Origin: Pseudomonadota bacterium
Lineage (GTDB): Bacteria > Desulfobacterota > Anaeroferrophillalia > Anaeroferrophillales > Tharpellaceae
Length of the DNA stretch: 35,840 nucleotides
Direction of reading: 5' to 3'
Assembly: GCA_011049115.1 (NCBI GenBank)
Contig: DSCM01000131.1
Span: 1 to 35,840 of the forward strand
The translations under genes and the position numbers were made by a program. Under the pieces are notes generated by a model. That model made no database searches and had not been told where the DNA came from. It saw only the letters and a list, made by a program, of their open reading frames with translations. Of this stretch, positions 1 to 12,668 are shown in pieces (the first letter of the stretch is position 1; each line of letters begins with the position of its first letter).

Positions 1-699
1 GGGGTTGGTTTTCTTGCGGATTAAATTGATAAAGCTTAAGACCTGTTCGACGCCATGTACCGATAAGTAATCGCATTGCGTCGGAATGATGGCCAGATGC
101 GAAGCGCTCAGAGCATTGATGGTGAAAAATTCAATGGAGGGCGGAGTGTCGATAATAATGTAGTCGAACCTGTCCTGAACCTGGCTCAGGTGGCTTTTTA
201 AAATAAATTCATAATCTTTGCCACCAAAGCATTTCTTGCTCAGCAAAACCATATTCTTGTTCGACGGCAATAACCACAGCCCGGGATAGGGGGTTTGAAT
301 GAGGGCGGAATCAAGCTTCTGCCAGCCGTTTTGAAAAACGTCGTAAAATGAACTCGTCTTCTGATATCCCAGGGAGAGGGTGAGGTTTGCCTGCATATCA
401 AAATCAATCAGCAGAACGCTTTTTTTCATGAGGCTCAGAGACAGGCCGAGATTGAGGCAGGTGGAAGTTTTGGCGACCCCCCCCTTCTGATTGGTGATAA
501 CTATCGTTGCAGAATTATGCGTTGTCTCGTCAGCCAGTGGCAGATTGACGGGTTGGTTTCGAGGAAGGCTGTCCGGCAGGGTGATCGTGAAGCTATGTCG
601 GCAGCGAGAACAACGCACCGGCAGTTTTGGGGGCGCGTTGTTCAGGTCGCTTTCACTGAGCCTCAGGCGGCTCCGGCATTTTTCGCAAACGACAATCAT
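1..699 (-). CDS. ParA/MinD-type ATPase with N-terminal zinc ribbon (3' end outside window)
   Basis: This reads as 233 codons from an ATG at 699 to the window edge with no stop, so the C-terminus is missing. Residues 1-40 form a small zinc-ribbon-like module with C5-x2-C8 and C30-x2-C33, resembling MJ0042-type fingers. The ParA ATPase follows: deviant Walker A KGGVAKT (72-78, both signature lysines), Walker A' LLIDFD (D99, D101) and Walker B IIIDTPPS (D184). It is the last visible gene of the chemotaxis operon and starts 10 bp after the CheB-like stop. ParA homologues in chemotaxis clusters (ParC type) are known to position receptor arrays at poles, and I infer that role here. Plasmid or chromosome partition is less likely because no parB or origin is visible. 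Confidence 0.85.
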   Translation of the reverse strand, partial: MIVVCEKCRSRLRLSESDLNNAPPKLPVRCSRCRHSFTITLPDSLPRNQPVNLPLADETTHNSATIVITNQKGGVAKTSTCLNLGLSLSLMKKSVLLIDFDMQANLTLSLGYQKTSSFYDVFQNGWQKLDSALIQTPYPGLWLLPSNKNMVLLSKKCFGGKDYEFILKSHLSQVQDRFDYIIIDTPPSIEFFTINALSASHLAIIPTQCDYLSVHGVEQVLSFINLIRKKTNP

Positions 700-709
700 C
701 GTGGCTCCT

Positions 710-1792
710 TCATTCGTTAATGATGGACATGATGGTTTGAGGCAGCTCGAATTCGTCCAGTACCAGATTGATGGTTCCCCGTCTGATCGCGTTTTCGGTC
801 AGGTTGGGGTAGACGCATGATTCGGTATCCTGCGCGATAGTGATGCCGGAAAACTTCTGAATCCGGGCCATGCCGTCGGCGCCGTCAGTTCCGATGCCGG
901 TCAGCAGCACGCCCACGGCATGGTTTTGAAAAACCTCGGCGGCGGCAGTGAAAAGCTGATTAAGAGGCTCGCTTTCTCCGCCGCTTTGTTTCAAGGCAAT
1001 GCTTTTGTCATCCTGGCTTTGCAGACCGATTGTCTGCCGACAGGAACCGATGTAGCAGACCCCCGATCTCAGGGGCAGGTCGTCCCGGACTTCGCAAACC
1101 TCCCAGGGTACCAGCCGGTCAAGGTGCTGGACGAAGGCGCTGATGATTTCAGGTGCGATCTCCAGGGCCACGACCAGCGCCGCCGGCAGGGTCGGCGCCA
1201 GACTGGAAAGCAGGCGAATGATGGCGTTCGGACCGCCCAGGGTTGTCCCTATGGCCACCAGGTAGTCCAGCGGCTGGTAACTGTAACGGCCGAGATTTTC
1301 TTTTCGATGAAGCCGCGGCAGGCGTACCCGGCGCAGATTATTGAGCTTGACCTCGCTCGCCATCTTGATCCGGTCAATGATTTGTTGCCGGGAACGATCA
1401 ATGTCGGGTGAAACGGCGCCTGATGGTTTGGGAATGAAATCGACCACCCCCAGGCGCAGGGCCTCAAAGGTTATCGCCCCATCACTGAACAGGGAACTGA
1501 GTACGACGATAGGCAAGGGACATTTGATCATAATATGTCTGATACCGGTCAGTCCATCCATGATCGGCATGTCGATATCCAGCGTGACCACATCCGGCTG
1601 CAAGCGGAGGATCTGTTCCAGTGCTTCCTGGCCATTGCTCGCACTGCCGACGACTTCAATCTGAGGATCGTTATGCAGCAACTCAAGGATGGCCTTGCGC
1701 ATGAAGGCGGCGTCGTCGACGATTAGAACCTTTATTTTCTGGGCATCCTTTTTCACAGAGGTCATTTTACCAGGGATTATCTCGGTTGTCAT
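710..1792 (-). CDS. CheB-like response regulator with degenerate methylesterase domain
   Basis: About 360 residues with CheB architecture: an N-terminal receiver (phospho-acceptor D72 in TLDIDMP, K in PKPS) and a C-terminal methylesterase fold. The catalytic triad is not intact. The usual GASTGG nucleophile loop reads GTTLGG (Ser replaced by Thr184) and the catalytic His position is Glu211, while the Asp of LTGIGTDGADG (D303) remains. Receptor demethylation is therefore doubtful, and a phospho-Asp sink or receptor-binding role is an inference. I chose the ATG at 1792 because an AGGA lies 9 bp upstream; an ATG at 1801 and a TTG at 1810 are in frame. It lies 29 bp downstream of the DUF4388 CheB-like gene in the same operon. 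Confidence 0.85.
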   Translation of the reverse strand: MTTEIIPGKMTSVKKDAQKIKVLIVDDAAFMRKAILELLHNDPQIEVVGSASNGQEALEQILRLQPDVVTLDIDMPIMDGLTGIRHIMIKCPLPIVVLSSLFSDGAITFEALRLGVVDFIPKPSGAVSPDIDRSRQQIIDRIKMASEVKLNNLRRVRLPRLHRKENLGRYSYQPLDYLVAIGTTLGGPNAIIRLLSSLAPTLPAALVVALEIAPEIISAFVQHLDRLVPWEVCEVRDDLPLRSGVCYIGSCRQTIGLQSQDDKSIALKQSGGESEPLNQLFTAAAEVFQNHAVGVLLTGIGTDGADGMARIQKFSGITIAQDTESCVYPNLTENAIRRGTINLVLDEFELPQTIMSIINE

Positions 1793-1821
1793 CTTATTCA
1801 TTCCTGTCAAGCCGTTTCGGC

Positions 1822-3648
1822 TTAAGTCAGCGTGTTGATCCAGGCAACCATCCCGTTGGCCAGGGCTTCGGGTTCGAGTTCCTGGTCGTGGAGTTCAGCC
1901 ATAAAAACCGCGGCCAGGGACTCAGGCATCATGCAACTTGAACGACGCTGAACCAGGATCCTGCCGCCTTGGTCGCGAACGTGGCGCAGACCATTCAGAG
2001 CACCGGTTTCCGCGCCGGAAAGGAGCACGACAAGCAAGCGTTCAGAAAAGCAATCAGCGGCGGCGGTCAGCAGAGAATCAAAATCTGCGGACTCTTTTCC
2101 TTTGATGTTCGCCGTTTGTCGTGAGCTCGAGATGATGGCCTGCGTGGTTGTCTGGAAATCCCATGAGGAGAGGCTGGAACCCAGGTAAAATCGACCGCTT
2201 TGTAAGGGGAAAGCCTCTGTGACCGGAGTTACATCTTGACGGCACAGACCCGCCAGATGTTTCGAAAAAGCAGGAATGAAGGACCCGGGGATAGAGCTCA
2301 GGCCGATAACCATGGGGCTGTTGGTCTGCGGCAGGCCGGTGGCCAGGTGATACAAAGCTCCATGACCACTGCAGCCGGTGAAAACTAGGACCAGACCGTC
2401 GGCGAGAGGGGAGGCGTGGCTTTGCCCCGGCAAGGTTTTGGCGCCGCGAAAGCGTTGAAAAACCGCCGGTCTGGCTCTGGCCGCCTGCCGTACGCAGGCG
2501 ACAATATTTTGCTGCTGCAGCAAAGGGTCTTTGCTCTTGACCGGTTTGCCGATAAAATCAACCGCCCCTAGATCCAGCAGTGAGATAATGGCCTCCGCCG
2601 AACCGCTGCCCACATTGCTCATAACCACGACCGGACATGGGCTTTTAATCATGATATGTTTCATGGTCGCACTGCCGTTCATCACCGGCATGTTGACGTC
2701 CAGCAGAATTAAATCGAAGTCCAGATTCTCCATCATGTGCAGGGCTTCCCTGCCATTGCGGGCGATGCCGGCGATTTCCATGTCTTCGGCCACCAGCAGC
2801 ATGCTCGACATGATTTTTGCCATGACCATGGAGTCCTCCACGATCAGCACCCTGATCTTACGGGTTGCGGCGAAGCTGGCCGCGGCGGTTTTCAGATTAT
2901 TGTCGGATTTAAAATCTTCATCCGCAAAGATCCTACCCAGCTCATCTTTACGGCGGGCGGATTCCAGCAGGAGATATTCGTAGTTGGATCTGATCGAGAT
3001 CATCCCGCCCGCGACGCCGTCCAGGGTTTCGAAATCACCCCCATGCCAGTTCATGATGGTATAGAAAGCCTCTTCCCCGATGAGGTTGTCACAGCAGGCG
3101 TGGACGATTTCTCCATCCTGAATGAAAATCTCCCCTTGCTGGAAATCGTCGTTGATTCGAATACTGATGCTGGCTCCCGCCAGGCAGCACATCTGAACCA
3201 GGTTATGCAGCTGGGTGATCTTGAGGGTGCCGACGAAGCCTTGTTGCGTCTGTCTGGAGGTGGAATCTTCGCTGAGCAGGTGCAAGATCGAAGCCGGGTC
3301 AAATGGTTGCTCGTGAATTTGCAGGCAGGGATGGGCGGGAATTTTTTTTCGCAGCGGTTCGCTGTCCGAAGGTAAGATCAGAATCGTCGCGAGTCGTGGA
3401 TAACTGGTAGTGATTCTTTCCAGCAGTCCCAAAGGAAGTTCAGCGTTTTCCTCGCTGGCGATGATGAGCAGAAAAATCTTTTCGTTCTGTAAAAGGGTGA
3501 GCGTCTCTTCATGGCCGTTAGAGCTCAGCAGCTGAAATGATCCCGATTGCTTGTCCAGATAGTCGGTCAGGGATTGTTTCAGGTAAGAGGAGCAATTCAG
3601 CAGAAGAATGTTCTTCAAACCGGCGTCCGTAACGTTATGTTCATGCAA
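1822..3648 (-). CDS. DUF4388-receiver-pseudoCheB fusion protein
   Basis: This protein has 608 residues and four modules. Residues 10-125 resemble a receiver fold lacking the phospho-Asp. Residues about 137-210 match the DUF4388/PatA-like domain, common in gliding and type IV pilus signalling. Residues 265-375 are a true receiver (D317 in LLDVNMP, K368). Residues 415-608 are a CheB methylesterase-like fold. All three catalytic positions are lost: the nucleophile loop reads TGCSGH (Cys426 at the Ser position), the His position falls on Ser, and the LTGMGxDGA loop reads LSGAETGAL. It is probably a non-catalytic output or scaffold protein. The start is a TTG with a weak GGAA about 9 bp upstream, so the exact N-terminus is uncertain. 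It sits between cheA and the other CheB-like gene. Confidence 0.82.
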   Translation of the reverse strand: MHEHNVTDAGLKNILLLNCSSYLKQSLTDYLDKQSGSFQLLSSNGHEETLTLLQNEKIFLLIIASEENAELPLGLLERITTSYPRLATILILPSDSEPLRKKIPAHPCLQIHEQPFDPASILHLLSEDSTSRQTQQGFVGTLKITQLHNLVQMCCLAGASISIRINDDFQQGEIFIQDGEIVHACCDNLIGEEAFYTIMNWHGGDFETLDGVAGGMISIRSNYEYLLLESARRKDELGRIFADEDFKSDNNLKTAAASFAATRKIRVLIVEDSMVMAKIMSSMLLVAEDMEIAGIARNGREALHMMENLDFDLILLDVNMPVMNGSATMKHIMIKSPCPVVVMSNVGSGSAEAIISLLDLGAVDFIGKPVKSKDPLLQQQNIVACVRQAARARPAVFQRFRGAKTLPGQSHASPLADGLVLVFTGCSGHGALYHLATGLPQTNSPMVIGLSSIPGSFIPAFSKHLAGLCRQDVTPVTEAFPLQSGRFYLGSSLSSWDFQTTTQAIISSSRQTANIKGKESADFDSLLTAAADCFSERLLVVLLSGAETGALNGLRHVRDQGGRILVQRRSSCMMPESLAAVFMAELHDQELEPEALANGMVAWINTLT

Positions 3649-3697: not shown

Positions 3698-6600
3698 TCA
3701 CGAAGTCGATCTGGCGCTTCTTCTGCCCGTTTCCCGATCCATGAAGAGATTAATCAATTCGTAAACGTCGAGAATCAAAGATATTCTGCCGTCGCCCAGA
3801 ATCGTGGCCCCGGAAAAGCCGCTTTTTTCCTGAAGGTAGTCTTCCAACGGCTTGATAACCACCTCTTCCTGTCCCAGCAGGGCGTCAACCACCAGCCCCA
3901 CTTCCTTCATGCCGGTGCTGACCACGACGACGAAAGCCGGCCGCGAATCGTTCCGGGTTTCTTTAAGCTTAAACAACTTTGCCAGGCGTACCAGGGACAG
4001 GGTATGGTGGCGCAGGGTGATGACTTCCTTGCTGTTGATGGTGGCGATGGCATCAGGTTTAAGCCGGAAGGTCTCTTTCACAGTGGAAAGAGGAATGGTG
4101 AATAACTCGCCGCTGACCTTGACCCGCAAGGCGGGGATGATGGCTAAGGTCAGAGGGATCTTAATACGGAAGCGGGTCTCGATTCCCGGGATGGTGTCGA
4201 TCTCAATTGTACCGTTGAGTTTTTCGATATTTTTTCTGACTACATCCATGCCCACGCCGCGACCCGAGATATGGGTTACAATTTCAGCCGTGGAAAACCC
4301 TGGTTTCATGATCAGTTCGGTTATTTCCCGGTTCGACATCCGTTCCAGTTCTTCCCTTGAGGCAAATCGTCCCGCCAGGGCTTTTTCCCTGACGCGGTTT
4401 AAATCAATGCCCCGTCCATCATCCATGATGTTAACCACAACATGATTGCCCTCGTGATAGGCCTCAAGTCTGATGGTGCCGATATCCGGTTTCCCTTTTT
4501 TTCGCCGTTCCGTCGTCGTTTCAATACCATGGTCGACGGCATTGCGGATGATATGAATCAGGGGATCGGAAATCTCTTCAATTACCATCTTGTCAAGTTC
4601 GGTGTCCGCGCCATGAATATCCAGCTTAACCTCTTTGTCAACATTGCGGACCAGATCAAAAACCAGCCGGGGATAACGGTTGAAAAGCTGGGAGATCGGC
4701 AGCATGCGAACCTTCATGACGCTTTCCTGAAGTTCATTGGCGACCCGGCCCAGTAGAACCGTGGCCTCATTCAGGCGAAAGGTCAGGCCGGTAAGCCGTT
4801 TCATTTCCCGCAGGTCGAACCTGTGCTCCTGTTGGAACTCCCGTAATTCTCTAAGCAACTGGTTAAACCCGACCCGGCTGACCACCAATTCTCCGACCTG
4901 ATTCATCAGTTCGTCAATTTTGCCGGCCTCGACCCGAAAACTCTGCTTGAGTTTTTTTTCGTTGATCTGGTCGGTCTGGCGCCGCGAATGTTTCTCGGGG
5001 TCGCGGCGATCGTTGCCCTGAAGCAGGGCGGAATTTTCCGCTTTAAGCAGGGCTTCTACCTCGGTCAGGGAAGGTCGCTCCTGCTCGGAATCGACTTCAG
5101 GCTGGACGGTCGTCTCTGGAGCGTGATTTGCGGTGGTCGGGCTTAATTGCGGGCCGGCTTTTTCCTGGTTGAGCAGTCGAATGCGTTCGAGCAGATCGTT
5201 GATTTCGGTTTTTTCGGCCTGGCTTTGTTTCAGATTATCCGTCAACTGGTTTAAGCGATCGCGGCCGGCGATCAGCAGATCCATCACTTCCCGGTTTACG
5301 GCCAGATCGTGCTGACGGAGCTTGTAGAGCAGGTTTTCAAGATTATGTGAAAGCTTGGCGATGCGTTTGATGCCCAGGTATTCCGCCGCCCCCTTGATGG
5401 TGTGAATCGAGCGGAAAATATCGTTTAAGATCTCCGGGCCGTCCGGGTCGGCATCCAGACGGAGAAGATTGTTTTCCATCTCTTCAAGATGTTCCATGGC
5501 TTCCACGATAAAATCCTGAAGCATGGTGAGGTCGGCGATGGCCGGCGCCTCGATAGCGGCGGAGGGTTCAGCGCCTGCGGCAAACGGAGATGGTTCGCTG
5601 TCAGGAGCCGTTGTTGTTGGCGGGTCAGCGGCAAAAGGGACGGGGTTGGTCGGTTTTTCGGTCGCGGCCTGGTCCTTGATTTTCCGACCGTGTTCAAGTT
5701 GTGAAAAATGGTCGAAAAGTTGAACGATGTTGGTTCGTATGCGATCAATTAACGTGGATGCGGCCGGTTTTCCATCGGCCGGCAGCGGATCTGGAGTTGC
5801 CTGAATCTCTTTCACCCAGGTGTCGTAAAGAGCGGCCAATTGTCTGTAACCCATGTAGTTGGCAGAGGCGCGCAGTGAGTTGAGCCGGGTCGGAATCGTT
5901 CTGAGGGTGGCGATGCGATGGTCGTTATCGGTGCTTGCTTGGAGAAGTTCAGTTTGTTTTCGCAGATCGCAGAGCCCGGTTTGCATGTGTTCCAGAAAGA
6001 TACTGAAGAGTTCCTCGTCATCGGTTTCCGTGCGGTCATCGTCCGTCGAGATGGGGCTTATCTCGGCGAAAACAGCGCTCAGATTATCCACGATTTCGGG
6101 GCCTGGACCGGCAACAGCCACGTCGTTGTCAACGACAGGGACGGATATTTCGGGATCAGGCGACGTCGGTTCAGCCGTCGCCTGATCGGACGAAGAAAAC
6201 AGCTCCGCTTCAATTTCAACCGAATCGGACTTCTCTGGAGCCTCCGGATCCCGGGCGATCTGGCGATCGAAAGACCAGCTCAGACGGGCCAGAAGATCTT
6301 TGTCGCTGCGTGGTGATTCCGAGGCCGTGGTGGGGGGCGAAGGTTCTGCCGCCATCGAGGAGTCTTCGGCGGCGTGCGCGGTTAAAAGATCCCAGGAATC
6401 GTCGTTTGTACCGAATGCTTCCCTGATGGCGCCGGCAAACCCTGGTTGGGGATCACTCTTTGCGGGTGCCGGCAGCTCGATTGCGGCCGCGCTTGCTTCG
6501 GTTTCAGGAAGTTGCAGTTGCGGAAAAATTTCCGCGATCACGGCGAAGTGGTCTTGCATGAGGTTTTCGACGGCGGCCGGAGAAAAAGCCTGGTTTTCGT

Positions 6601-7318
6601 TTTCAACCAGTTCCCGGATTGCTTGCAGCTTCCGGGTCCATTTCTCGTAGACGGAAACCAGCCGTGCATAACCCATGTAATTGGCGGAAGAACTTAACGA
6701 GTCAATGATACTCAAACAGTCATTTAAAACGTCTAGTCCGCCGGCGGCGCCGGCGGTGAACAAGGTAGTAGTTTGGGTCTGGAGATCAAGAAGGCCCTTT
6801 TCCAGGTGCTCCAGGAAAATTCCTAAAAGCTCGTCATCGTCCTCCTCATACGTGCTTGCGGTGGCGTTGGGGTCGGAAAAATCCATTTCGTCAAATTCAT
6901 TTACGGTGGTTGATTCACTATAAGCTTTGTTCAAAGAAAAATCTTGTTTGAGGGTCTGAATCTGTTCAATCAGATCATCGATCTTTGTCGGCTCGCCCGG
7001 CTCGTGTTCAAGTTCTGCGACCAATTGTCCGATCCGTTGCCTGACGGCCAGCAGAAGGTCAATCGTTGCCTTGGTTATCCCGGGCCGGGCGGGCCGAATC
7101 TGATTCAGTAAGCCTTCAGCTTCATTTGCTAATCTCGCGACCGGTTCGATGCCGAAGTACTCGGCCGCACTTTTAACGGTGTAAACCGAGCGAAAAATAT
7201 TATCCAAAAGCGCCCGTTTGTCGGGCTCCTTCTGCAGGTGGAGAAGGTCGCTTTCCATCTCTTCAAGACATGCTCCCGTTTCCATAATGAAATCTTGAAG
7301 CAGGGAAAGATCCGTCAT
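3698..7318 (-). CDS. cheA: CheA histidine kinase with four Hpt-like modules
   Basis: This hybrid CheA has 1206 residues, far longer than the usual 650-750. Four Hpt-like helical modules are visible. Module 1 (1-125) has Tyr46 where the phospho-His should be. Module 2 (160-270) has Asp206 and module 3 (433-545) has Asn480 at that position. Only module 4 (596-720) keeps the motif IHTIKGAAEYLG (His639). Acidic and proline-rich linkers separate them. Then come the dimerization domain (about 790-880), the ATPase (N box HIIRNAVDHG near 922-931, G1 DDGRG 966-970, G2 GRGVGMD 1019-1025) and a CheW-like P5 domain (1058-1195). The ATG has AAGGAG six bases upstream. It receives signals through CheW and the receptor encoded upstream and should phosphorylate CheY and the receiver domains of the CheB-type proteins. 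Confidence 0.95.
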   Translation of the reverse strand: MTDLSLLQDFIMETGACLEEMESDLLHLQKEPDKRALLDNIFRSVYTVKSAAEYFGIEPVARLANEAEGLLNQIRPARPGITKATIDLLLAVRQRIGQLVAELEHEPGEPTKIDDLIEQIQTLKQDFSLNKAYSESTTVNEFDEMDFSDPNATASTYEEDDDELLGIFLEHLEKGLLDLQTQTTTLFTAGAAGGLDVLNDCLSIIDSLSSSANYMGYARLVSVYEKWTRKLQAIRELVENENQAFSPAAVENLMQDHFAVIAEIFPQLQLPETEASAAAIELPAPAKSDPQPGFAGAIREAFGTNDDSWDLLTAHAAEDSSMAAEPSPPTTASESPRSDKDLLARLSWSFDRQIARDPEAPEKSDSVEIEAELFSSSDQATAEPTSPDPEISVPVVDNDVAVAGPGPEIVDNLSAVFAEISPISTDDDRTETDDEELFSIFLEHMQTGLCDLRKQTELLQASTDNDHRIATLRTIPTRLNSLRASANYMGYRQLAALYDTWVKEIQATPDPLPADGKPAASTLIDRIRTNIVQLFDHFSQLEHGRKIKDQAATEKPTNPVPFAADPPTTTAPDSEPSPFAAGAEPSAAIEAPAIADLTMLQDFIVEAMEHLEEMENNLLRLDADPDGPEILNDIFRSIHTIKGAAEYLGIKRIAKLSHNLENLLYKLRQHDLAVNREVMDLLIAGRDRLNQLTDNLKQSQAEKTEINDLLERIRLLNQEKAGPQLSPTTANHAPETTVQPEVDSEQERPSLTEVEALLKAENSALLQGNDRRDPEKHSRRQTDQINEKKLKQSFRVEAGKIDELMNQVGELVVSRVGFNQLLRELREFQQEHRFDLREMKRLTGLTFRLNEATVLLGRVANELQESVMKVRMLPISQLFNRYPRLVFDLVRNVDKEVKLDIHGADTELDKMVIEEISDPLIHIIRNAVDHGIETTTERRKKGKPDIGTIRLEAYHEGNHVVVNIMDDGRGIDLNRVREKALAGRFASREELERMSNREITELIMKPGFSTAEIVTHISGRGVGMDVVRKNIEKLNGTIEIDTIPGIETRFRIKIPLTLAIIPALRVKVSGELFTIPLSTVKETFRLKPDAIATINSKEVITLRHHTLSLVRLAKLFKLKETRNDSRPAFVVVVSTGMKEVGLVVDALLGQEEVVIKPLEDYLQEKSGFSGATILGDGRISLILDVYELINLFMDRETGRRSARSTS

Positions 7319-7377: not shown

Positions 7378-7731
7378 TTATAATTGTTCAATCAGCCGCA
7401 GAATTTCTTCGGTACTGTTTTTGTTGAAATAGCCCTTGGCGCCCAGGCTGCGGGCATTTTCGGTATAATCTTTTTCATTGAGGTTGGAGAGGAAAATGAT
7501 TTTCGCTTGGCTGTCGAAGGCCAGAATCTTTTCGGCCGCGGCCAGGCCATCCATTCCCCGCATGGTGATGTCCATGGTTACCAGATCAGGTCTTGCCTGC
7601 TTGTAAAGTTCAACCGCATCGCTGCCATCCTTGGCCTCACCGATTATTTGATGGTTTGCGGCCTGAAGGGTTGCCTTGATCATCTTGCGCATGATAGCGG
7701 AATCGTCCACTATCAGTATGGTTTTTCCCAT
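7378..7731 (-). CDS. cheY: CheY-type single-domain response regulator
   Basis: A 117-residue stand-alone receiver with the acidic pair D9-D10, phospho-acceptor D54 (VTMDITMRGMDG), switch Ser82 (FLSN) and conserved Lys104. This is the diffusible output of the CheA in the same operon, acting on a flagellar motor or another effector that is not encoded in the window. An AAGG lies 8 bp before the ATG. It sits 19 bp downstream of cheW and 59 bp upstream of cheA. All residues needed for phosphotransfer are present. Confidence 0.95.
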   Translation of the reverse strand: MGKTILIVDDSAIMRKMIKATLQAANHQIIGEAKDGSDAVELYKQARPDLVTMDITMRGMDGLAAAEKILAFDSQAKIIFLSNLNEKDYTENARSLGAKGYFNKNSTEEILRLIEQL

Positions 7732-7750: not shown

Positions 7751-8257
7751 TCAAGTTATGTTTAGTTGACGTAGTTTCATGATCTCTTCCACCAGAAGGA
7801 TGCGGTTGAAGTCCAGAAGCACCAGCAGACCTTGATCAATTTGGCAAACGCCGGTAATGTATTTACTCTGCATGCCGGAAACCACGATATCCGGGGGAGG
7901 TTTGACGCCGTCGCGGGGGACTTTGAGGACCTTGGTTACGGAATCGACCACGAAACCGGTCACTCGATCCCCGATATTCAGAATCATGATCCAGGTCTTG
8001 CCGGAGGCTTTTACGGAATTTAGATTGAGGCGGCGCCTTAAATCTATAACCGGAACGATATTTCCCCGCAGGTTGATAACCCCTTCGATGAAGTCGGGGG
8101 CATTGGGAATCGCGGTGCAGGAGGTTTCCCGAATGATTTCCTGTACCATCAGGATATCAACCCCGAACAGTTCATTTCCAATGACGAAACCCACAATTTG
8201 CATGAGGCCGTCATTTTCCTCCTGATTTATTTCCTGATTCGGGTACTGTTCTTTCAT
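7751..8257 (-). CDS. cheW: CheW adaptor protein
   Basis: A 168-residue single CheW domain that couples receptors to CheA in the membrane-associated array. The typical signatures are present: the GFVIGNELFGVDI strand, EIIRET, GVINLRGNIVPVIDLR and DFNRIL near the C-terminus. The first ~17 residues are polar and precede the domain. The ATG has AAGGAG at good spacing. It is separated from the receptor gene stop by 146 bp, the widest gap inside the operon, which contains two GGCGCC palindromes but no terminator. Confidence 0.95.
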   Translation of the reverse strand: MKEQYPNQEINQEENDGLMQIVGFVIGNELFGVDILMVQEIIRETSCTAIPNAPDFIEGVINLRGNIVPVIDLRRRLNLNSVKASGKTWIMILNIGDRVTGFVVDSVTKVLKVPRDGVKPPPDIVVSGMQSKYITGVCQIDQGLLVLLDFNRILLVEEIMKLRQLNIT

Positions 8258-8403: not shown

Positions 8404-10989
8404 CTAAACCTTGAACTGCTCGGTTTGCTGTGTCATGACATGGGACAGCTTCTGCAACCCGTCGGCAAGTTTCACGACCGTTCCGGCGCCTTCCTTGGTC
8501 TGCAGCGCGTCCGCGGTGGATTTTTCGATGATTTCCACCAGCTTTTGCGAGCGTTGCGCCTGTAGGTCGGTCATCTTTCTGCTGTCTTCGCTTCGTTTTA
8601 CGATTTCTTTCATCTGCTGACCGACTTCGCTAAGCCCCTGGTTCGCGTTCTCGATCAGTGCGGAAATGGTGCCGGCTTTTTCCGTCAGGGTGGCAAGGGC
8701 CGCCATGGATGTCGCCCGGCGTTCGCCCTGTTGTCCGGCCATCTCCCCGATTTCCCGGGCCAGCTGGTTGAGCCCTGCCATCATGGCATTGATGTTTTGA
8801 ATACCGGTCGCGATCTGTTCCGTGCTGTGAACGATCTTCTGGGTGGCCTGCAAGCTATTGCCGCTGCCGGCAACAATCTGATCCAGTGCCAGCCGGGCTC
8901 GATCGGAAAGACGGGTTCCGGTTTCAACTTGGGCCGAGGAATCTCTGATCAGCTTGGTGATTTCCTTGGCGGCTTCCGAAGAACGCTGTGCCAGTTTACC
9001 TACTTCATCGGCGACGACGGCGAAACCCTTGCCGTGAACCCCGGCCCGCGCCGCTTCAATGGCGGCATTCAGGGAAAGCAGGTTGGTCTGCTCGGCGATA
9101 TCCGTGATGACGGTGATGATTTCCGAGATCTGTTCCGACGATTCAGCGATGTTCCGCATACCCGCAACCGTGGCCGCCACGGATTCGGTGCCTTCGTTGG
9201 CCGCTTTTAAGGCGTTGTTGGCCAGCAAGGTGGCTTCGGAGGTGATGCGGATCAACTCCTGGACTGACTTTTCCATGTCGGTAACGGACTTGGCGGCGGT
9301 GATGATCTGCTCACCCTGTTTTTGCGTGGCCTGCACGACTTTGTCGCCGGTGTCACCCATGGCCTGGACGCGCTCCATAGCCGTGGCGGCATCCCTGGTC
9401 TGGCTGTCGGCGGCCTCCGTAACCGTTTTCATGATCTGCATCATATGTTCAGTTTTTGTGCTGGAGGTGTCGGCGGACTCGTTCTGCAGCAATGCCGCAG
9501 AGGCAACATCCCTGGCTGTGGCCCGCATGTCTTCCACCGTCTGTTGTACGATCCGCATCTGCTCAGCCTGATCTTCGGCGCGCTTCTGGTTGGCGCCGGC
9601 CCGCTGCGCGACATTATCCGATAATCCGGCCACGGCCTTGGAAGATTTGATGATCGTCAGGAAGGATTCCTTCAGGATTTTCATCAAGCCATTGAATTCT
9701 GTGGCCATGGTGCCGAGTTCGTCCCCGCTGCTGACCGGAACTACGACGCTCAGATTTCGTTCCTGGGCTGAAGCATGAATCGTGTTTGCGATTTTACGGA
9801 TCGGATTGGCGATACCCTGGGAAACCAGAAGCCAGATGATCGAGGCCCCGACAAAGGCGGCGGCGAGCAAGCCCCAGAGCAGATTCCGATTTTGTCGGTT
9901 GATCGCTCCGATAGACGTGGCTGAAGCTAAAAATTCATCTTCATAGGAACCCACGCCGATGACCCAGTCCCAGGGGGCAAAATACATAATCCGGGAAACC
10001 TTCGCGCGGGCCACGGGCTCTCCGGGGTTTTTCCATGAATAGTAGCTTTCCCCGATTCCGCCCGGTTTCTGGGCTTTGCCGATAGCAACGATCTCCTTGA
10101 CGAAAAATTTGCCGTTGCTGTCTTGGGCGGCGGAAATATCTTCTCCGTCACGGACTCCGTCTTTCGAGATAATATATCTTCCCTTGCTGTCCAGTGCCCA
10201 GGCATAACCGGTTTTACCGATTTTGATGCCATAGACCGCTTGGCGCAGGGTTTTATTCTTTTCCAGGGGTACTCCGACTTCCAGCATGCCGACAATCTGC
10301 TTGTTTCGGTCAAAGATGGGTTCCGCTAGGGTCAAGTAGAACTGATTCCTTAAGGTGATTCGGCCCTGGTAGGTCCTGCCGGAAAGAATGGTTTCTATCA
10401 TGGGATCGGGTTTGTTGGCGACGCTGGAGGGAATATAACTTCCGATTCGGCGGCGTCCGTTTTCCTGAAGAATGTTGGAGGCGACGCGCAACATGTCGCC
10501 GTTGTTATTCATGCGTTGATAGATGGTGCAGATCACGGTGGTCGTGATGCCGACCAGGGGCTGGAGCTCGTCAACTGCCGGAATGGTTAGATGGGGATCG
10601 CCCGTCATGCCCGGCCAGATGTTTCCGATCAGCATTTTCGGCAGGCTGGCTGAGGACTTGGCCTGGCTGTCCTGATTGATAACTTCCCAAGACGCGGGTT
10701 CATTGGTGAGCTGAATGCCGCCCGCGTTCTCGATCAGTTTCTGCAGGACATTCATATTGTCCCGCAGATTTTCCTGCAGTAGATCGTTTTGGACCTTGCA
10801 CATCTCATAGAAACCCCTGACGCTGTGATCAAGTCCTTCCTTGGCCAGGACAAGACTCTCTTCCGTTGCCACCGAGAGCATCGCCTGATTCTGCTGCATA
10901 GCGATAAATCCGAAAATCATAAGCGGCACAAGGGTCATGAGCGTGCCGGGAAGCATGAACTTTTCTCTGAGTTTAAGCTTTTTCAACAT
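8404..10989 (-). CDS. methyl-accepting chemotaxis protein with large Cache sensor domain
   Basis: An 861-residue receptor. TM1 lies at about 11-31, then a long periplasmic region (about 35-365) of Cache type: the stretch [10 protein letters not shown]...[11 protein letters not shown] and the [21 protein letters not shown] motif are typical. TM2 is at about 369-390, HAMP at about 391-445, then a long methylation/signalling coiled coil with the hairpin tip [20 protein letters not shown]. No CheR-tethering pentapeptide is seen at the C-terminus (QTEQFKV). The ligand cannot be read from sequence; Cache domains often bind small organic acids or amino acids. It lies between the intact cheB (15 bp upstream) and cheW and so is the cognate receptor of this cluster. 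Confidence 0.93.
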
Positions 10990-11004: not shown

Positions 11005-12153
11005 CTAAAGGGTTTGGCAATAAGTTTTTATCGCGTCCGCGATATAGGCATCGGGTAAGACTTTGCCTGAGCTGCATTTCAAGATGGCGGCCTGGGGCAT
11101 TTCCCTGAACAGGCAGGTGTGGGGAGATTGAATGATGACTTTCCCCTTCATCCGGGCGATTTCGGCCACGCCCTCGGCCCCATCCTGTTCCCGTCCGGAA
11201 AGAATAATGCCGATTGTGCGTTGTGGCATGATTTCAGAGAGCGACAGCATCAGCATGTTGATGGCACCGCGCCGATCGGGAAAGGGAGACGGGTGTACTC
11301 TTAAGCTCAGACCTTGCTGCTCCTGGCTCGTGGTTATGTATTCGGATCCCGCCGCCAGATAGCAAGTGCCGTTTTGCAGGGTAATCCCGTTTACGGCCCG
11401 TTGCACGTTGATGGCGCTGTGCTTGTGCAGGTAATCGGCAAAAGCGTCAATATGGGACGGGTCGGCGTGGACAACCGCCAGATAGGTCGCCGGCCATTGC
11501 GGTTTAAGTCGTGGAATGATTTTCAGAAGGGCGCCGTAACCGCCTTCGGAAGCTCCGAAAACCACATAGTGTTCAATGTCGGTTTTGGCCGGGTCCGCGG
11601 CGGGACTGGTTGCGGTTGATCGCAGCAGTCGTACATTTTCAATTCTGACGTTTGCGACCAGCATGATTTTTTCCCGAAGTTGTCGTCGTTGGGTTGCCAG
11701 GGCCTCGTCGCCGAACCGGGAAGGTTTTTCGATGAAATCGATGGCACCGAAGCGTAAGGCATCGAAGGTTTTGGTCGCGCCTTCCCTGGTCAGGGAGCTG
11801 AGCATGACCGTGGGCGTGGGATGTTTGATCATGATATGCTTCAAGGTCAGCAAGCCGTCCATTTTCGGCATGTTGATGTCGAGGGTGACGACATCGGGTT
11901 TGATTTGGGGGATCATCTCTAATGCTTCCCTGCCGTTGCCGGCTTCGCCCACCACCCTGATCCGGGAATCCTGCTCGAATGTACTTCTGACCGCGGTGCG
12001 GATCAGCCGGGAATCGTCGACAATCAGAAGCCTGAGGGGGTTCCGGTGCAGTTGCTCGGATCGTGAATTTTCACCGCCGGCCCCGGGAGTCTTGCCGGGG
12101 CCCGGTAAGTTCTGCCGGTTGTCGATGTCTTTGTCTGCAGTCTCATGCGGCAT
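11005..12153 (-). CDS. cheB: CheB protein-glutamate methylesterase (apparently intact)
   Basis: 382 residues from an ATG at 12153 preceded by GGAG at good spacing. A longer in-frame extension to 12378 exists, but it has no such site and an unconserved sequence. A receiver (D92 in TLDINMP, IEKPS) is joined to a methylesterase domain that keeps the triad: Ser202 in GASEGG, His229 in AVVHADP and Asp324 in LSGREQDGAEG. It would remove methyl groups from receptor glutamates and deamidate glutamines. It is the first gene of the che operon. It shares the HIMIKxPxP signature with the two degenerate CheB-like genes downstream, suggesting duplication followed by loss of catalysis in two copies. No partner cheR is in the window. 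Confidence 0.92.
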   Translation of the reverse strand: MPHETADKDIDNRQNLPGPGKTPGAGGENSRSEQLHRNPLRLLIVDDSRLIRTAVRSTFEQDSRIRVVGEAGNGREALEMIPQIKPDVVTLDINMPKMDGLLTLKHIMIKHPTPTVMLSSLTREGATKTFDALRFGAIDFIEKPSRFGDEALATQRRQLREKIMLVANVRIENVRLLRSTATSPAADPAKTDIEHYVVFGASEGGYGALLKIIPRLKPQWPATYLAVVHADPSHIDAFADYLHKHSAINVQRAVNGITLQNGTCYLAAGSEYITTSQEQQGLSLRVHPSPFPDRRGAINMLMLSLSEIMPQRTIGIILSGREQDGAEGVAEIARMKGKVIIQSPHTCLFREMPQAAILKCSSGKVLPDAYIADAIKTYCQTL

Positions 12154-12668
12154 AAGATCTCCTCGATAGAGTGTTCGCAAAAAACGCCAGGGTTTTTTAA
12201 AGCGCGGCCCGCAGGTTGAAACGGCCATGGAATTACGATTGTGTATTCCAGGATACGTCGGCGTATTCTTTTCCTTAATGTCTTTTTCCCGATCCGTGGT
12301 GCTCAGCCATCCCTGGGAAAGACCACTCGGGCCAGGGAAAACGCGGCGTTTTCCCTGCGGACTTGAAGCATCTTCCAAATATCGTTTTCCTGATGGCGAT
12401 TATTCCGTAAAGGAACAAGGTCGACGGGTCAGCAATATTCGCGCCATCACGGTAAAATATCGAGAATATTAAGTCGGAAGATTTTGCGGGATGGCCCGGA
12501 GTCGAAAAAACAAGACTGCACTTTTTCTTTGTGGGCCGAGTTTTAACGGGTGCGGGGGGTTGGTAAAACTTGCCGTTAAGGTGCTGTAAGCTGTAGTGTC
12601 AACCATGCGAATGATCTGTTTGGGTTTGTTTGTCGGCGCCGCGTCTTTTCCAGTGTGCGCCGCTGAGA
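12154..12668 (-). promoter_or_regulatory. che operon leader with competing inverted repeats (intergenic region)
   Basis: No gene is supported in these 515 bases. On the minus strand they form the leader of the che operon. A perfect 11-bp inverted repeat (arms 12333-12343 and 12347-12357, 3-base loop) sits about 180 bp before the cheB start. Downstream, arms at 12322-12331 and 12288-12300 can form a second stem (GTGGT/ACCAC and CCCGA/TCGGG with a small bulge). The TTTTCCC of the first repeat could alternatively pair with GGGAAAA at 12284-12290, so the structures compete. I do not recognise a riboswitch family and could not fit a sigma28 promoter. Confidence 0.4.

Follow-up and report, generated by a model that had tools for sequence, protein, structure and literature searches.

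The methylation of receptors by CheR and CheB is the textbook mechanism of adaptation, and in true CheB, the receiver lifts off the CheB domain once phosphorylated and so uncovers its face. The catalytic triad of the P. atrosepticum CheB (6ymz) is given as S165, H191 and D287 (PMC7698151). For CheV, a published table names a role as phosphate sink with signal termination, or alternatively a role in adaptation, as possible functions (PMC8396549).

The window analysed here (35,840 nucleotides) is contig C131 in its entirety. The genome to which it belongs, assembled into 143 contigs with a total of 2.64 Mb, carries flagellin genes. Pfam analysis revealed a run of minus-strand genes in the order CheBs-MCP-CheW-CheY-CheA-CheBc-CheBt-ParA, including three CheB-like proteins designated CheBt, CheBc and CheBs:

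1..699, minus strand: ParA-type ATPase with an N-terminal zinc ribbon, truncated by the contig end (Pfam)
710..1810, minus strand: CheBt, the first triad-less copy, a REC and CheB-fold protein (Pfam, alignment, AF2 model, structure match)
1822..3648, minus strand: CheBc, the second triad-less copy, with an N-terminal receiver-like domain lacking the acceptor Asp, DUF4388, REC and a CheB-fold domain (Pfam, alignment, AF2 model)
3698..7318, minus strand: CheA, 1206 aa, with Hpt, dimerisation (H-kinase_dim), ATPase and CheW domains (Pfam)
7378..7731, minus strand: CheY-like receiver (Pfam)
7751..8257, minus strand: CheW (Pfam)
8404..10989, minus strand: chemoreceptor with Cache_3-Cache_2, HAMP and MCPsignal domains (Pfam)
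11005..12378, minus strand: CheBs, the third CheB of the operon, REC and CheB_methylest (Pfam, alignment)

Like the CheB methylesterases of S. Typhimurium (1a2o) and P. atrosepticum (6ymz), CheBt and CheBc combine REC with a CheB fold, show the same packing of the two domains in the predicted models and have CheA, CheW, CheY and MCP genes as neighbours. Different from those enzymes, they lack the triad, three copies are present per cluster, no CheR partner is found, and ParA, HAMP, TauE and ABC transporter genes are attached. The likeness to CheV, a phosphorylatable receiver on a non-catalytic adaptor, concerns the way of working only, as CheV is a CheW-REC fusion that is not homologous to the CheB-fold proteins outside the receiver. 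With DUF4388 response regulators (PF14332), CheBc shares a DUF4388 domain before the receiver, which is also found in proteins of loci L059, L060 and L061. To our knowledge, no DUF4388-REC-CheB protein has been described, and the open-licence PMC literature yielded no match for a CheB with DUF4388; nor did titles and the starts of abstracts there yield inactive CheB paralogues of this kind. ParC and PpfA, chemosensory ParA-type ATPases, resemble the present case in that a ParA-like ATPase lies within a chemosensory cluster, but the ParA of the window has an N-terminal zinc ribbon.

A preliminary description of this DNA had claimed two CheB-like copies with eroded catalytic sites, and Pfam together with an alignment of the triad columns confirmed both. 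In CheBt, Pfam detected REC and CheB_methylest (129 bits), and the alignment placed Thr190 (1241-1243) at the position of the nucleophile Ser and Glu217 (1160-1162) at that of the His, precisely the two replacements described; Asp309 (884-886) is retained. The CheBt receiver has D32, D33, D78, S106 and K128 at the key positions, with the phospho-acceptor D78 at 1577-1579. An AF2 model based on a 24-row alignment (pLDDT 87.6, pTM 0.85) matched full-length CheB 1a2o_A with a Z-score of 41.5 over 333 residues at 2.3 Å. Among 23 orthologues, from which L051 was dropped because its length (17403 bases) and number show it to be the G010 contig, the triad strings are TED (15), SED (3), NED (3), SDD (1) and TDD (1). 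The Asp is thus kept in 23/23, and the His position holds Glu in 21/23 and Asp in 2/23, while the nucleophile column holds Thr in 16, Ser in 4 and Asn in 3, a variability that makes a Thr nucleophile unlikely. A functional triad elsewhere in the domain had been considered in the preliminary description; the CheBt CheB domain contains no conserved His able to rebuild one, its best His column reaching 6/23, and therefore no alternative conserved Ser-His-Asp triad is present there. Nevertheless 38 columns of this domain are conserved at 90% or above across the 23 orthologues, many of them around the old pocket (G188-N195, E217, G305-G313 and C332-L337), and the preservation of this pocket is a sign that CheBt has a ligand or partner of a specific kind.

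CheBc, in which Pfam found DUF4388, REC and CheB_methylest (59.5 bits against a cut-off of 24), has lost all three triad residues, in agreement with the earlier claim: the alignment places G425 (2374-2376), S452 (2293-2295) and G549 (2002-2004) at these positions. A Cys as nucleophile was ruled out, as the alignment puts Gly425 at that site and Cys426 at the neighbouring Thr165 position. The CheBc receiver has E271, D272, D317, N345 and K368, with the acceptor D317 at 2698-2700, so that the acceptor Asp and the Lys are kept in both copies and the phosphorylatable receivers attributed to them stand. The acidic pair of CheBc is Glu-Asp, and its switch Thr/Ser is replaced by Asn, as in 6/6 close orthologues, which suggests weak output. 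The AF2 model of CheBc (pLDDT 81.6, pTM 0.59; 16-row alignment) matched 1a2o_A with a Z-score of 36.9 over 331 residues at 2.4 Å, covering residues 262-608. The superposition on CheB proposed in the preliminary description therefore succeeded for both proteins, and since both matches span receiver and CheB domain, the packing of the receiver on the former active site, as in full-length CheB, seems to be kept in the two models.

In CheBc, conservation of the CheB domain is weak. The triad is present in 0/17 rows (G033_c excluded), only 2 columns are conserved at 90% or above, and the best His column, at 12/17, is also not conserved. Pfam did not detect the domain in L061, the one Syntrophobacteraceae-type protein scanned, and a CheBc-type CheB domain was not detected in several Syntrophobacteraceae-type clusters; with its weak conservation, the domain may be on its way out. 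At the other end of the protein, residues 12-134 are predicted to form E12-17, H21-33, E38-43, H46-55, E58-64, H73-82, E87-92, H97-102, E109-113 and H118-134. This order of strands and helices, together with two receivers detected by Pfam in the counterpart from the relative G033, suggests that the N-terminal domain of CheBc is receiver-like; the rows of the structure search cover residues 256-608. Its acceptor column holds Ala64 in CheBc and Asp in the distant G033. The N-terminal receiver domain is intact in the distant relative L040 (6184-8001).

The third CheB, described as intact, keeps its triad exactly as stated, S202/H229/D324 when numbered from the ATG at codon 76 (12151-12153) and S277/H304/D399 in the long ORF. 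Two further sites do not fit the description: in the alignment, CheBs has Glu at the Thr165 position and Arg at the Met283 position. The claim that the eroded copies lie beside it holds only in that all three belong to the same gene run, as CheBs lies more than 7 kb away at the opposite end. The triad letters of CheBs are kept in the window, G003, G006 and G010, and Tyr replaces His in G007. Within the nine CheBs rows, His is retained in 4/9 and lost in 5/9, and Ser is retained in 6/9 and lost in 3/9. All of them (9/9) carry Glu where an otherwise invariant Thr adjoins the nucleophile, and all (9/9) lack the invariant Met; both Thr and Met are kept in 29/29 canonical CheB rows. These replacements make the status of CheBs as a true methylesterase doubtful. 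Six Syntrophobacteraceae-type first-copy proteins, which are placed elsewhere in the tree and were excluded from the nine rows, have the triads GDD (5) and GAD (1).

The arrangement recurs in related genomes, where the preliminary description had suggested that it be sought. A protein search of 40 genomes, including the present one, found full-length matches to CheBc in five further genomes from its family, with identities of 47-53%. The operon order is shared by G003, G006, G007 and G010, and only its end lies on the 3.6-kb contig of G004. A contig scan yielded 80 loci, 17 with a CheBt orthologue, and the cluster extends beyond its own family to Desulfobacterales, Desulfobulbaceae, Syntrophobacteraceae and gammaproteobacterial MAGs. 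Among the 94 CheB-domain ORFs of these 80 loci, which were not selected by triad, Ser-His-Asp is present in 58/58 outside the 17 clusters and in 1/36 inside. In a quick tree, built with the three triad columns removed and with 22 canonical-CheB loci chosen for comparison, one branch (SH-aLRT 98) has the CheBt rows to one side of it, another (100) the 29 canonical rows, and the nine CheBs rows (99) and the 17 CheBc rows (93) each group together; L059_c was flagged as a long branch. Since the same order and substitutions occur in other genomes and the copies group in the tree, the loss of the triad is old and inherited. CheBt-like domains with an E-value of 1e-25 or better were found in 14/395 genomes of a phylum sample, which makes the system rare and its distribution patchy. 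The L055 cluster has a CheBt 57% identical to that of the window; its contig, assigned to the bin Synechococcaceae cyanobacterium SM1_2_3, is probably mis-binned. Another degenerate CheB, with P/D/N at the triad positions, is encoded in L042 (G026:C272, 3-1172) and falls outside the three tree clades.

Two close pairs give a CheB-domain dN/dS of 0.09-0.18, with synonymous sites near saturation and the ratios therefore rough, and the dN/dS of the receiver is lower than that of the CheB domain in both pairs. When the window is compared with G006 or G010, where synonymous sites are likewise near saturation, the CheB domains of CheBt and CheBc give 0.21-0.34. These values support purifying selection on a CheB domain without the triad. 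The selected pseudo-enzyme role put forward in the preliminary description gains from this selection, from the conserved order and substitutions, and from the lack of a replacement triad in CheBt. It is thus very likely that CheBt and CheBc are both non-catalytic and conserved.

The genome encodes 3 CheA-type kinases, 2 CheR genes and 5 CheB domains. Its CheR genes are confined to contigs C22 and C133, each together with a canonical CheB, and none is found in the system of the window. No ORF matching CheR was found in 21 distinct related clusters, of which those of G004, L053 and L054 lie on contigs shorter than 5 kb and some more are truncated on one side; the distant member G033 has CheR and a canonical CheB inside its cluster. 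The CheRs encoded on C22 and C133 could act in trans on the cluster. No consensus methylation motif is present in the receptor of the cluster, yet it is also absent from some other receptors of the genome, and motif counts do not tell the receptors apart; a second chemoreceptor on the window contig (21103-22353) has the motif. The CheA of the window (3698-7318) contains four Hpt-like motifs, around residues 43, 203, 477 and 636, with the phospho-His only in the last. The first has Tyr here and His in G003, G006, G007 and G010, and the two middle motifs lack His in all five.

Downstream of CheBt, the operon appears to continue on another contig. Contig C108 of the same genome carries the C-terminal part of a ParA, followed at its end by HAMP, TauE, permease, ATPase and substrate-binding genes; given that these supply the remaining ParA and the transporter genes, the operon was most likely split by the assembly. 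This locus, L171 (G000:C108, 1553-5960), and related loci have HAMP, TauE/SafE and a sulfonate-type ABC transporter after the chemosensory genes, and their substrate-binding protein seems to be membrane-anchored. The nearest NCBIfam families of the permease, ATPase and binding protein are sulfonate/taurine/nitrate-type systems, all below the cut-offs. In genomes of the same family, HAMP and TauE proteins separate ParA from the permease. Downstream of CheBt, usually after ParA, 12/21 clusters, G010 included, have a permease with 64-82% identity to that of G010; it is absent from the covered stretch of 6 Syntrophobacteraceae-type clusters, and the contigs of 3 more end too early. HAMP-TauE pairs also occur directly before a DUF4388-REC-CheB gene in L059 (15219-17941) and twice consecutively before CheA in L040 (13112-16271), and the pair may be a separate unit of its own.

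Several explanations can be offered for triad-less CheB copies. The receivers of CheBt and CheBc might serve as phosphate sinks draining phosphoryl groups from CheA or CheY, with the CheB-fold domains as passive remnants. This fits the acceptor Asp, acidic pair and Lys retained in both proteins, the Asn at the CheBc switch position, the stronger constraint on receivers than on CheB domains, and the Syntrophobacteraceae-type clusters in which the CheBc domain escaped detection. A sink needs no second domain, however, and alone it fails to explain the 38 conserved columns of CheBt, many at the old pocket; we therefore regard it as improbable for the pair as a whole, though the suggestion of a sink in the preliminary description may still hold for CheBc. 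Less probable again is the competitor role suggested in the same place, here understood to mean that CheBt and CheBc occupy the methylation sites of receptors and keep CheBs or canonical CheBs away from them. In its favour, the CheBs of the window has Ser-His-Asp, and the genome encodes two CheRs and two canonical CheBs. The model is weakened by the lack of CheR in the related clusters and by the doubtful state of the supposed true CheB, whose family loses His and Ser and differs at two further invariant sites.

CheBt might alternatively be a new enzyme, in which the acidic pair E217/D309 and the Thr/Ser/Asn residue carry out other chemistry, for example metal-dependent. The invariant Asp, the Glu or Asp found at the His position in 23/23 and the strictly conserved pocket columns are in line with this; the variable nucleophile position speaks against it, and we know of no catalytic site of such a kind in the CheB fold, so it seems slightly less plausible than competition. 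Relaxed decay of redundant copies without function is very improbable. The poor conservation of the CheBc CheB domain across families would agree with it, but the reading frames are open, order and substitutions are shared over long distances, and the low dN/dS of the close pairs tells against it; for CheBt, decay is already contradicted.

Taken together, we propose that CheBt and CheBc are phosphorylation-gated, non-catalytic CheB-fold regulators in a chemosensory system without CheR, probably acting by binding, a reading to which we assign a probability of about 0.5. In such a system, the CheA of the cluster would phosphorylate the receiver Asp (D78 in CheBt, D317 in CheBc), which would detach the receiver from the CheB-fold surface that it covers, as in true CheB. 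The exposed pocket would perform no hydrolysis and would instead bind a partner stoichiometrically. The likeliest partner would be the receptor signalling bundle, which comes close to the receptor binding suggested in the preliminary description; adaptation would then depend on phosphorylation and be non-covalent, much as has been proposed for CheV. Next in line as candidates would come ParA or the linked membrane proteins. Phosphorylation, release, partner and effect are all inferred, and a binding and adaptation mechanism, taken by itself, is plausible but falls somewhat short of even odds. For CheBc, a role as receiver/DUF4388 scaffold or as phosphate sink is as likely as one as a binding protein.

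More tentatively, the cluster may represent a chemosensory class without covalent receptor methylation, in which all three CheB paralogues would be phosphorylation-gated binders linking the array to ParA and the HAMP/TauE/sulfonate-type ABC transporter, with adaptation or transporter control being stoichiometric. The ParA, HAMP, TauE and ABC genes, with their steady linkage, point to a physiological input or output of the system. These conserved clusters, with three CheB-fold regulators of which two are triad-less and with no CheR, offer a natural setting for testing what the CheB fold and the phospho-switch can do without catalysis, and whether an array can adapt by binding alone.
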